Shown here: in pieces, positions 8,892-52,712 of the stretch
Layout: each line of letters opens with the position of its first letter
How positions within the stretch are numbered: position 1 is the stretch's first letter
Origin: Burkholderiales bacterium
GTDB taxonomy: Bacteria > Pseudomonadota > Gammaproteobacteria > Burkholderiales > SG8-39
Direction of reading: 5' to 3'
Length of the DNA: 58,617 nucleotides
Assembly (NCBI GenBank): GCA_014860355.1
Contig: JACZJV010000040.1
Location: 1 to 58,617 of the forward strand
The notes under the pieces: model-generated
The model's database searches: none
Told to the model about the DNA's origin: nothing
Seen by the model: the letters and a program-made list of their open reading frames with translations, nothing else
Made by a program: the position numbers and the translations under genes

Positions 8892-8978
8892 TGGTGCCGG
8901 GAGGGGGAATCGAACCCCCATGACCGTAAAGTCGCGGGATTTTGAGTCCCGTGCGTCTACCAATTCCGCCATCCCGGC
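8892..8978 (-). tRNA. tRNA-Leu (anticodon CAA)
   Basis: An 87-nt class II tRNA with encoded CCA. The acceptor stem is GCCGGGA/TCCCGGC, the anticodon arm CGGGA-CTCAAAA-TCCCG gives anticodon CAA for UUG, there is a long variable arm, and the T arm is GGGGG-TTCGATT-CCCCC. The 3' end faces the integrase, so this gene is the likely attachment site of the element. The gene is intact, as expected if the element restores the 3' sequence. Confidence 0.97.
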
Positions 8979-40473: not shown

Positions 40474-41055
40474 TTACTTCAGCCGCGAGAAATAGTGCGC
40501 CAGAGCCTTGAAATCCTGCTCCGCTATGCCGTACAGCGATGCTGCCATGATGGTGTCGCCGCCGGGGCGGCGGTTCTGGCGGTAGGCGAGCATCGCCTCG
40601 GCGAGGAACTCCTCGCGTTGGCCCGCAAGGCGCGGCATCTGTTCGCGGCCGCGGAAATCCGGCAGGTGGCAGCTAGCGCAGCGGTTGGCCGCCGCGACCG
40701 ACTTGCCGCGCTGGAATAGCTTCTTGTCGACCGGTTCCCTTGCCGGTTTCGCCTTCAGCGCGGAAAAATGTTTCGCCAGCGCGACGATTTCCCGGTCCGG
40801 CATGCCCTTGAGCAGGGATTGCATGAGCTGCGTGCCGCGGATGCCTTCGCGCGTCATGACCAGGTAGTTCTCGAGAAAAATCTGCGGCTGGGCGGCGATC
40901 GACGGCGTACCGGGCACTGCGGAATTGCCGTCCGCGCCGTGGCAGCCGGCGCAGCTGCGCAGATGCACGGCCAGGCGGTCCTCGGCCTGGCCGTGCGCGG
41001 CGGAAATCAAAAGGGCGGCGAGCAAGGCCCAGCGCCCCCTGCTTGCAAACAGCAC
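40474..41055 (-). CDS. Dihaem c-type cytochrome
   Basis: A 193-residue periplasmic cytochrome with signal peptide and two class I haem domains, CAGCH (35-39) and CASCH (126-130). Distal Met candidates lie in SLLKGMPDRE and DTIMAASL. The start GTG 41055 shares one base with the TAG stop of the sorbosone-dehydrogenase-like gene, so it is coupled and very probably the electron acceptor of that enzyme. Confidence 0.93.
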   Translation of the reverse strand: MLFASRGRWALLAALLISAAHGQAEDRLAVHLRSCAGCHGADGNSAVPGTPSIAAQPQIFLENYLVMTREGIRGTQLMQSLLKGMPDREIVALAKHFSALKAKPAREPVDKKLFQRGKSVAAANRCASCHLPDFRGREQMPRLAGQREEFLAEAMLAYRQNRRPGGDTIMAASLYGIAEQDFKALAHYFSRLK

Positions 41056-42278
41056 TATTTCTTCGGCGCGCTGTAGCTGATGCGGTAGATCGCCCCCAGC
41101 TGCTCATCCGATACGAGCAGCGAGCCGTCCGTCATCTGCGCGATGTACGCCGGCCGGCCCCAGAAAGTGTTTTTCTTCGGGTCCATGAAACCGGTCATGA
41201 ACGGCTTCAGCTTGGCGCTCTTGCCGTCGGCCGAAGGCCGCACGTTGATGACGTCGTAACCGAACTTCTTGCTGCGGTTCCATGAGCCCTTGCGCGCGAT
41301 GAACATCGTGCCCTGGTACTCCTTCGGGAACATCTCGCCGGTGTAGAACTTGACCCCCATGCCCGCAGCGTGCGGCCCGGTCGTGATCACCGGCAGCGTC
41401 ACGCCCTTGCAGGCGTCCTTCTTGCCCTTCGCGGTGTCGGGATCGATCACGCCCTTGGCGTGGCAGTACGGGTATCCGTAGTAGTTGCCCGGCTTGTCGA
41501 TGCGGTTGAGTTCGTCTTCCGGGCCCTTGTCGCCCAGCCAGTCGCGGCCGTGGTCGGTGAACCAGATTTCGCCGGTCTTCGGATTCCAGTCGAAGCCCTG
41601 CGTGTTGCGGATTCCGGTGGCGATCACCTCCATGTCGCTGCCGTCGGGGTTGTAGCGGCGCAGCTGCGCATACTCCTTCGGCGGTTCGCAGATGTTGCAC
41701 GGCGCGCCGAATGGCACGTAGAGCTTCTTGTCAGGACCGAAGGCGAGGTACTTCCAGTTGTGGTGCTGCTCGGGCGGCAGCTTGAACGCAGCGGTCAAAT
41801 CCACCGGCGCCACATCCGGCTTGTTCTCGATGCCGTCGAAGCGCAGCACCTTGTCGATCGCCATGACGTAGAGCGAACCGCCCTGGAAGGCGACGCCCGA
41901 GGGCTGCGTGAGCTTGTCCGCCACCACGCGCACGCTGCGCTTGTCGCCTTCGTCGGTGACCTCATAGACGCGGCCGATGCCGCGCGTGCCCATGTAGATC
42001 TTCTTGCCCGAGTCGCCGATGGCCATCGCACGCCCGCCGACCATGCCGGTGGCCCAGACTTCGACCTTGAAGCCCTTGGGCAGCTTGAGCTTTTTGAGCG
42101 GAATGTCGGCGGCCTCGGTCTCGGTCATCTTGCCCGGATTCGGCGCGAGCTTGGAATCCTTCAGCTTTTCCGGCTGGCCCTGCTTCCAGATGGGCGGCGG
42201 CTTGTCCTGCGCCAACGCCGCCTGAGCGGCGAATACGAGCATGCTTGCGGCAGCTAGCGCAACTGATTTTCTGATCAT
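41055..42278 (-). CDS. PQQ-type sugar/sorbosone dehydrogenase, periplasmic
   Basis: A 407-residue six-bladed beta-propeller of the glucose/sorbosone dehydrogenase family. A signal peptide ends at AALAQ. Motifs include KLPKGFKVEVWATGM, QPSGVAFQGGSLYVM, TGIRNTQGFDWNPKTGEIWFT with DHGRDWLGD, and GYPYCHAKG. PQQ binding is the family expectation. No pqq gene is in the window. ATG 42278 has an excellent GGGAGGTAA site. It is followed without gap by the dihaem cytochrome. Confidence 0.92.
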   Translation of the reverse strand: MIRKSVALAAASMLVFAAQAALAQDKPPPIWKQGQPEKLKDSKLAPNPGKMTETEAADIPLKKLKLPKGFKVEVWATGMVGGRAMAIGDSGKKIYMGTRGIGRVYEVTDEGDKRSVRVVADKLTQPSGVAFQGGSLYVMAIDKVLRFDGIENKPDVAPVDLTAAFKLPPEQHHNWKYLAFGPDKKLYVPFGAPCNICEPPKEYAQLRRYNPDGSDMEVIATGIRNTQGFDWNPKTGEIWFTDHGRDWLGDKGPEDELNRIDKPGNYYGYPYCHAKGVIDPDTAKGKKDACKGVTLPVITTGPHAAGMGVKFYTGEMFPKEYQGTMFIARKGSWNRSKKFGYDVINVRPSADGKSAKLKPFMTGFMDPKKNTFWGRPAYIAQMTDGSLLVSDEQLGAIYRISYSAPKK

Positions 42279-42637
42279 GAAATTACCTCCCATTGAAGAA
42301 ACGATAGGAAATTCGATCCTGCGTCATGTCGCGCGACAGGCCGACGGCGGTGGTTTTCAGCTCTTTTTGTGCCGCCTGGCGTCGTGCGGTTTGGATATTG
42401 CGCCCGCGCGCAGCCGATTGCAATGCCCGGAAGCTAGCCAGACCTGGCCCGCGTGGTCCGGTCTCAGAGCGCGAGCTCGGGGGGCGGGCGATGCCGGAAA
42501 CGAATCCCGCGGGGGGCTTCCGGTCGACCAGGTTGAATGCCGGACTCGACCGTGGCCGGACCCCTGCCCCGATCAGCAGAACGTCGGCAAACGGTTCGCG
42601 CGGCGGGATTAATCCGCTGCGGCGCTGCGAACCTGTA
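42279..42637. other. 359-bp spacer, no gene seen
   Basis: This stretch lies between the selenoprotein stop and the dehydrogenase start, both on the minus strand. I see no gene. It should contain the dehydrogenase promoter. A partial match (GATAGGAAATTC near 42302) to the dispersed repeat of the left end is probably chance. Confidence 0.4.
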
Positions 42638-42859
42638 TCAGAACTGGATCGTCTCCAGGTCGGAGTCCGAGGGGAAACGTCCCGTCACGTAGCGCGAGTA
42701 GACCAGCTTTTCATCTACGACGACATCGAACTGACCCGACTTTCCGGGTCGAACCTCAACCGGCCCGCGGCCGCGAGCCTCGATCCAGGCCTTCACACGG
42801 AGGGCCTCGGGTCTGTAGTTTCAGGCAGCGCAGTAATGGATGAGGATGGCCATGGTCAT
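42638..42859 (-). CDS. SelW/Rdx-family selenoprotein (in-frame TGA = Sec)
   Basis: Read through an in-frame TGA at 42821-42823, this gives a 73-residue protein. It begins MTMAILIHYCAAUNYRPEAL, with Cys10 and selenocysteine 13 exactly as in SelW, and continues with GKSGQFDVVVDEKLVYSR and TGRFPSDSDLE. CxxU followed by NYRPEA, then the G-F-V-D-LVYSR-GRFP pattern, is diagnostic of the thioredoxin-like SelW/SelT/Rdx family. Most bacterial members have CxxC. The codon after TGA continues the homology without a frame change, so a stop is unlikely. ATG 42859 is chosen, with a GAG at 4 nt; ATG 42853 is an alternative. It should act as a small redox protein. selA/selB/selD must lie elsewhere. Confidence 0.82.
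42787..42807 (-). promoter_or_regulatory. Candidate bacterial SECIS hairpin
   Basis: Starting 14 nt after the Sec TGA, AGGCC pairs with GGCCT around an 11-nt loop (CTCCGTGTGAA). Two further pairs are possible above a mismatch, leaving an apical CGTGT loop with GU. Distance and GU-containing loop match the known shape of bacterial SECIS elements that bind SelB. This was folded by eye. Confidence 0.6.
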
Positions 42860-45413: not shown

Positions 45414-45845
45414 TCAAACCAGCCTTACCAGATGCCTGGCCGCCGCACCCTTCACCGCAGAGAGCGCGATACCGGAATCGAAGGTGACCATGCGCCCGCC
45501 ATGCTTGAGCGCCAAGGCCAACAGATAGGTGTCGGTAATCTGCCGCGCGCTATGCACCCGGGTGCCGTCCACGATTCTGTGATCGACGATGGACGTGTCG
45601 TCCGGCCAGAAAAGGTGGGCGGAATGATCCAGCGCGCCGCGCAGGCGTTCGATAATTTGCGCGGCGGGCCGCGTCCCGGGATAGGCGGCCTGCGACATGA
45701 TGCGTACGCAGCCATTCTGCGTAATCGGACAGGAAGCCCAGCCATGCTTGATATTGGCCTTCAGCCAGGACCATGCCGTTTCGTGGTGCGGGTGGGCCTG
45801 GTCAAGCAATCCGATCAGCACGTTGACATCCAGCAGCGCGCGCAC
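45414..45845 (-). CDS. vapC: VapC-type PIN-domain toxin
   Basis: A 143-residue PIN RNase. The acidic residues sit in LLDVNVLIGLLD, in IERLRGALDH/WPDDTSI and in QITDTYLLALALKHGG, where the central D-x-x-L motif is typical. FDSGIALSAVKG completes the site. It starts at GTG 45845, 13 bp after the antitoxin stop. It resembles the TA-system VapC group common in proteobacteria. Confidence 0.88.
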   Translation of the reverse strand: MRALLDVNVLIGLLDQAHPHHETAWSWLKANIKHGWASCPITQNGCVRIMSQAAYPGTRPAAQIIERLRGALDHSAHLFWPDDTSIVDHRIVDGTRVHSARQITDTYLLALALKHGGRMVTFDSGIALSAVKGAAARHLVRLV

Positions 45846-45858
45846 CCTGCCTGCTCTC

Positions 45859-46098
45859 CTAATACTCGCCGTCTTCGCGCAACTTGTTGATCAGCTCGTT
45901 GCTGACGATCCGCCCCGCTTTGGCAAACGGCCTGAAGCCGTAGACGGCTTTCGGTTCAGCCGACGCTGCCGTATGCGCGCCCGCCAGGCCCTTGCGCGCC
46001 AGTTCGGAAATGACCTGACCGGCCGTCTTTTTTTCCCGCCGCGCCAGATCCTTGGCTGCAAACAGCACGTCTTCTTCGATGTCGAGAGTGGTACGCAT
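45859..46098 (-). CDS. vapB: VapB-type ribbon-helix-helix antitoxin
   Basis: A 79-residue antitoxin. MRTTLDIEEDVLFAAKDLAR is the ribbon-helix-helix start, KKTAGQVISELARKGL follows, and the tail YGFRPFAKAGRIVSNELINK is the toxin-binding segment. I prefer ATG 46098, which opens the canonical RHH, over ATG 46116. It precedes and is coupled to the PIN toxin. GATGCGT repeats around the start (46092-46125) may be its operator. Confidence 0.85.
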   Translation of the reverse strand: MRTTLDIEEDVLFAAKDLARREKKTAGQVISELARKGLAGAHTAASAEPKAVYGFRPFAKAGRIVSNELINKLREDGEY

Positions 46099-46162
46099 CA
46101 AATCAGCGTATTGCATCACGCATCAGATGTCAATCCGGTCTGCCCCCAATAGCGCCGAATGC

Positions 46163-46531
46163 CTACACCGCGCTGCCGAAACCCTGGTCCTGTGCCCCTG
46201 CCGGTGCCTGCAGGCCGGCGAGCCGGCAGCCTTGGGCCACCGGTCCCTTGGGAAACAGCTCGTAGAGATACTTGATGCCGCCCTTGTGATGGAAGTGCTC
46301 GTCGAGCGCATCGTGCAGGTCACGCGCGCGCAGGACCGGTTCCTCGCTGCGCGCAAACAGCTCCTGCAAGCCACGAACGACCTCCCAATGATCCTCAGTC
46401 AGCGTCAGACCTTCCGTACGCGCGAATTTTTCAGCGTCTTCAGGGGACCAGTCGAAGGGAGCGCGGGGGAATCCGGGGTGAGGCCTGGGTTCGTGACCGG
46501 GGCGTATGGTATTTTCGGTTCCATGCGTCAT
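46163..46531 (-). CDS. DsrC/TusE-family sulfur carrier-like protein
   Basis: A 122-residue DsrC-fold protein: DWSPEDAEKFARTEGLTLTE, HWEVVRGLQELF and GIKYLYELFPKGPVAQGCRLAGL. It has only one conserved cysteine (C102). The C-terminal active-site cysteine 11 residues later, present in DsrC and TusE, is replaced by Ala113, and the chain continues QDQGFGSAV. It is therefore unlikely to be a normal persulfide carrier and may be a regulator or a distinct subgroup. Strong AGGAGG site before ATG 46531. Confidence 0.88.
   Translation of the reverse strand: MTHGTENTIRPGHEPRPHPGFPRAPFDWSPEDAEKFARTEGLTLTEDHWEVVRGLQELFARSEEPVLRARDLHDALDEHFHHKGGIKYLYELFPKGPVAQGCRLAGLQAPAGAQDQGFGSAV

Positions 46532-46865: not shown

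Positions 46866-52712
<5,847 letters not shown>

Follow-up and report, generated by a model that had tools for sequence, protein, structure and literature searches.

The window, by which we mean the whole 58,617-nucleotide stretch of DNA analysed (Burkholderiales bacterium, assembly GCA_014860355.1, contig JACZJV010000040.1), carries on its minus strand a short gene of the Rdx family whose reading frame is interrupted by a TGA. A sequence-only reading of this DNA had proposed it to be an unannotated SelW-like selenoprotein gene, and the proposal was followed up here by computation, which gave the reading frame, family, fold model, UGA conservation, hairpin covariation and decoding genes. The features of the locus are as follows.

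42638..42853, minus strand: selW-like gene (Rdx family), most likely 71 amino acids with one internal UGA; Pfam Rdx, TIGR02174 and a Met aligned with relatives
42821..42823, minus strand: UGA codon, almost certainly read as selenocysteine (CxxU motif); same-codon TGA in relatives
42857..42859, minus strand: upstream in-frame ATG, the start taken in the earlier reading and probably not the main one
42785..42810, minus strand: putative bacterial-SECIS-like hairpin, +14 to +39 from the U of the UGA; folds, pair counts, covariation and invariant codons
42990..43814, minus strand: upstream neighbour, enoyl-CoA hydratase family by family searches; not beside SelW in the relatives' flanks examined
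41055..42293, minus strand: downstream neighbour, glucose/sorbosone-dehydrogenase-like protein
40474-41055: cytochrome c-like gene, following the dehydrogenase-like gene

Among the relatives' flanks examined, only those of the closest relative (L022, identical with L110) have the last two genes next to SelW. Gene context was considered as a clue to function and set aside, the neighbours not being kept beyond this relative and many of the relatives' contigs being short; because the neighbours do not stay beside SelW, no operon partner is proposed.

On the minus strand, the sequence passes an ATG at 42859 and another at 42853 before reaching TGC GCT GCC TGA, with this TGA at 42821-42823, and the read-through frame closes at a second TGA (42638-42640), both stops being as originally described. 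A mechanical listing of open reading frames without read-through gives in the same frame only a 52-amino-acid ORF from GTG 42796, which bears out the remark that conventional ORF calling misses the gene, an omission now corrected. Read-through from ATG 42859 yields 73 amino acids. The gene is most likely 42638-42853, with the motif C8xxU11, because ATG 42853 (residue 3 of the longer frame) is an invariant Met across 31 aligned sequences (drawn from 34, namely the window and the 33 true loci of the scan described below, with L043, L045 and L046 left out), while ATG 42859 is present in only three of the 18 rows inspected (the window, L022 and L024). The residue numbers of the motif in animal SelW are 10 and 13, and agreement with them depends on the upstream ATG 42859. 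The Cys-Ala-Ala-Sec motif, CAAU being the window's form of CxxU, accordingly stands as first read, and its numbering as 10 and 13 gives way to C8 and U11 from the conserved start.

The read-through protein matches Pfam Rdx (PF10262) with 52.5 bits (E 5.8e-14; cut-off 22.6), and the segment following the TGA still scores 33.6 bits on its own (E 4.4e-8). It also scores above the cut-off of NCBIfam TIGR02174 (CXXU_selWTH; 43.8 bits vs 34.2). The top-scoring NCBIfam model is NF041051 SelTWH_Campy, with 64.5 bits over residues 6-68, short of its equivalog cut-off of 88; the window protein is related to that group, yet not a member by this cut-off. Eight PDB sequences are matched by the profile, among them SelW (2npb), C17orf37/MIEN1 (2ljk) and bacterial entries. 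An AlphaFold2 model (pLDDT 94.2, pTM 0.83) retrieved 23 PDB chains at E <= 0.001 in a fold search, all from the same eight entries, with matches to 2fa8, 2ojl, 2p0g, 3dex, 2oka, 2obk and mouse SelW 2npb. The six bacterial Rdx structures in this list match in sequence too and reach model-normalised TM values of 0.76-0.88, but share 20-29% identity in the fold alignments and have longer chains (103-108 residues); we take them to have Cys where the window protein has Sec. Together, the fold and the CxxU motif point to a small thiol/selenol oxidoreductase, which is most likely what the predicted SelW-like protein is.

Conservation of the interrupting codon was followed at three depths. A scan of public-genome contigs yielded 34 loci, of which 33 share a TGA at this codon; the exception (L055) is spurious and was dropped from later counts. 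The titles of the scan records name Burkholderiales, Betaproteobacteria, Reyranella and other Alphaproteobacteria, Binataceae and a few others. One record titled as a Klebsiella pneumoniae MAG (L048) has the same match position as contig C326 of G034, from the window's own family, and its title looks wrong. Among 98 genomes of that family, the window's own included, 19 have a SelW match, each with exactly one TGA (19/19). Of 396 genomes sampled from the phylum, 42 have a match, three with one TGA and 39 stop-free, and the three TGA-bearing matches (again including the window's own) have the three best scores. Cys occupies the Sec position in 27 of the 27 stop-free homologues read, out of the 39; TGA was translated as C in this reading, and the Cys call rests on those 27 being reported stop-free. 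A set of 52 loci, all with UGA, does not test conservation, since a U was already part of the pattern by which SelW was selected there.

Comparing the window with six relatives gave dN/dS values of 0.10-0.22 for the 57 codons that follow the TGA and of 0-0.27 for just 10 codons before it, the latter with very few sites; by this measure, selection after the UGA is purifying. Homology on both sides of the TGA had been claimed from the outset, and the relatives indeed keep the in-frame TGA with conserved protein flanking it. Random residues at the TGA position and a lack of constraint downstream had been named as evidence that would count against the selenoprotein reading; what the homologues have is Sec (TGA) or Cys at this position, with purifying selection downstream.

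The hairpin is predicted to have a core stem in which +19..+24 pairs with +30..+35, with an apical loop CGUGU at +25..+29 (window 42795-42799) whose G at +26 is invariant in 45 rows. A bacterial selenoprotein gene should have a hairpin close behind its UGA whose small apical loop contains a G, and this candidate element has that form. The comparison used 45 distinct rows, kept from 52 owing to overlapping contigs, of which 38 are distinct over 42 columns. In three pairs both partners change across rows, as from C-G to G-C and from U-A to C-G. In all, 89.9% of cells are paired, 32 cells are changed on both sides and the covariation score is 0.355 vs a shuffled mean of 0.113; none of 500 shuffles reaches the paired-cell share, the both-side-changed cells or the covariation score, with the caveat that related sequences may exceed shuffles without any structure. 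All measures drop when the pairing partners are shifted by 1 to 3 columns. The number of pairs with both-side change (reached by 460/500 shuffles) and the pair types (67/500) show no excess over shuffles. Pair +22/+32, which is C-A in the window, fails in 14 of the 38 distinct rows and pair +19/+35 in nine, and RNAalifold retained four of the six counted pairs.

The codons beneath the stem add to this picture. Within ten close sequences, the five core codons do not vary (GCC, CTC, CGT and AAG in 10/10, GTG in all eight having Val), and the other 54 codons after the UGA show synonymous variation in 40 and none in 14, one of these being Trp. The flanking +18/+36 position is G-C in four of the ten (window included), A-U in five and A-C in one, all changes being synonymous. 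Folded alone, the window hairpin is not unusually stable against shuffles in any of three stretches (z -0.49, -1.29 and -0.63), so the claim of a hairpin rests on the comparison. An Rfam scan matched no family to the hairpin, its sole match being a snoRNA family elsewhere and below the gathering score.

These data bear on an alternative reading, in which the real gene would be the 52-amino-acid ORF that starts from GTG 42796 after the UGA. Such an ORF is what mechanical listing offers in frame, and even with everything up to the UGA removed the Rdx domain is matched in part. It would, however, go without the first strand of the model and the CxxU motif; moreover, the residues before the UGA are conserved (by the above dN/dS on only 10 codons) and GTG 42796 sits inside the hairpin. 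We consider this reading very improbable, and return to a gene read through the UGA.

The machinery that such read-through demands is present. The window's own genome (5.09 Mb in 202 contigs, 99.17% complete, 2.66% contamination) contains selA, selB, selD and tRNA-Sec, whose absence had been named beforehand as counter-evidence. Two tRNA-Sec genes have a UCA anticodon by ARAGORN; four matches exceeded the gathering score, and two of these were rejected as tRNA-Ser. A match to the tRNA-Sec model within the window (8896-8978, minus strand; 40.8 bits vs a gathering score of 47) is probably an ordinary tRNA. Two selD genes score over the cut-off (L058 7048-8100 and L059 6342-8627), one of them forming the rear part of a 761-amino-acid ORF whose front resembles, by eye, NADH dehydrogenase. 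Of the stretches that match the formate dehydrogenase alpha model in this genome, 17 in all, not one contains a stop, so what usually accounts for the retention of selenocysteine is not evident here. With SelW and two UGSC-family genes described below, the genome has at least three predicted selenoproteins.

Within the family, selB accompanies 15 of the 19 SelW genomes vs 28 of the 79 others (Fisher p 0.0008), and any of selA, selB and tRNA-Sec is found in 16 of the 19 vs 33 of the 79 without SelW (p 0.0016). At the thresholds used, no selA, selB or tRNA-Sec was detected in the SelW genomes G009, G023 and G095 (59, 73 and 85% complete); G020 (96% complete) yielded neither selB nor tRNA-Sec, only a selA that is truncated at the end of its contig. 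In G027 (97% complete), there is one SelB, of the type later called C38, and a tRNA-Sec on the SelW contig; no selA match was obtained there at 1e-40. In the phylum sample, selB is present in both other TGA-bearing genomes, including G247 on a single contig, vs seven of the 39 stop-free ones; therefore, more than a single assembly underlies the finding.

It might still be asked whether the UGA is read as some other residue, such as Cys or Trp. Sequence by itself leaves room for other insertions at Sec codons, but the complete Sec machinery in the genome, the exchange of Sec and Cys at the position and the covarying hairpin close to the UGA all argue for selenocysteine and make a different residue highly unlikely. 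A pseudogene that arose by nonsense mutation from a gene for a Cys-containing Rdx protein would explain why a stop interrupts the frame in a family whose stop-free forms are common (39 of the 42 matching genomes in the phylum sample), but it is the least credible of the alternatives given that all 33 true scan loci, in records labelled Burkholderiales/Betaproteobacteria, Alphaproteobacteria, Binataceae and others, have TGA as the stop at this codon, that selection after the TGA is purifying and that the synonymous codons in the hairpin are invariant.

The locus is thus almost certainly a selW-like selenoprotein gene whose UGA is read as selenocysteine; that this organism decodes UGA in this way, as was first implied from the reading frame, is supported by its sel genes, the Sec/Cys homologues, the purifying selection and the covarying hairpin. 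From these data we infer Sec insertion and a redox activity with a reductant and a substrate, which may proceed in the following manner. The mRNA would be translated from ATG 42853, and at UGA 42821-42823 SelB with Sec-tRNA-Sec, bound to the hairpin just downstream, would insert selenocysteine. The 71-amino-acid product would take the thioredoxin-like Rdx/SelW fold, with the CxxU redox motif preceding the first helix, and might cycle between the selenolate/thiol and selenylsulfide forms.

Bacterial SelW-like selenoproteins have been in print since 2005 at the latest, and the window gene adds one member. Excerpts of the literature describe SelW-like as the most abundant family of the Sargasso Sea set, with 48 genes, an unclear function, a motif suggesting a redox role and a detected interaction with glutathione (PMC1088965), and count 427 SelW-like selenoproteins with CxxU in Global Ocean Sampling (GOS) samples (PMC2398784). 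For several families including SelW-like, organisms that contain Sec are stated to have hardly any Cys homologues or none at all (PMC1794560), and other excerpts list SELENOW-like with pfam10262 (PMC9312934), name a SELENOW-like protein (PMC13188914) or give a table row for Selenoprotein W like (PMC5029168). The SelW-like genes of the two marine sets (PMC1088965; PMC2398784) share with the window gene the CxxU motif, a SelW-related family, the in-frame UGA and a hairpin just downstream; the window gene differs only in sequence and host lineage, with no new architecture seen. What makes the finding of interest is its clean comparative evidence, together with a doubled decoding machinery.

Two SelB proteins over the cut-off, 53% identical, are encoded in the window's own genome on contigs C38 (L056) and C40 (L057), together with the two tRNA-Sec genes and one selA match, on C40. 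Each SelB adjoins a thioredoxin-reductase-like gene, with a UGSC-family gene containing an in-frame TGA within about 4 kb; the UGSC of C38 is fused to a second domain and scores above the Pfam cut-off and below the NCBIfam equivalog cut-off, and that of C40 stands alone and scores above both. In a tree of 37 of 47 SelB (10 gave no protein with the motif filter), the C38 type belongs to a nine-member group (support 100/100) and the C40 type to an eight-member one (100/99), with weaker support (82/88) at the node that unites both groups. Two SelB occur in four of the 98 family genomes, the window's own included. Tetranucleotide correlation with the window is 0.96 for each SelB locus vs 0.77-0.93 for ten loci of other genomes, with another locus of the own genome at only 0.92; this composition fits, without proving, an origin of both SelB sets in one genome and not in a mixed bin. 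Our search of open-licence literature found no paper on doubled SelB; two different complete operons with non-identical tRNA-Sec are reported, in an excerpt, for Photobacterium profundum 3TCK (PMC5330540).

Two parallel Sec-insertion systems may be imagined on this basis, with two SelB from separate clades, two tRNA-Sec and one SelA in common, each system linked with a UGSC and a thioredoxin-reductase-like partner of its own, and with the solitary SelW preferentially decoded by one of them. We regard this arrangement as unlikely; if true, it would mean that Sec decoding is split between two elongation factors in one cell. SelW co-occurs with a single SelB of either type (C38 type in G027, C40 type in G115), so that either of the two may read its hairpin. 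The invariant codons and covarying hairpins offer a clean test case for bacterial SECIS recognition, more so given two different SelB.

Three other features of the window were noticed by eye: a single 1948-amino-acid ORF at 46866-52712 (plus strand) that looks like a double-length UvrA, two short adjacent ORFs at 45414-46119 (minus strand) resembling a PIN-domain toxin and its antitoxin, and a small ORF at 46163-46531 (minus strand) resembling DsrC/TusE.
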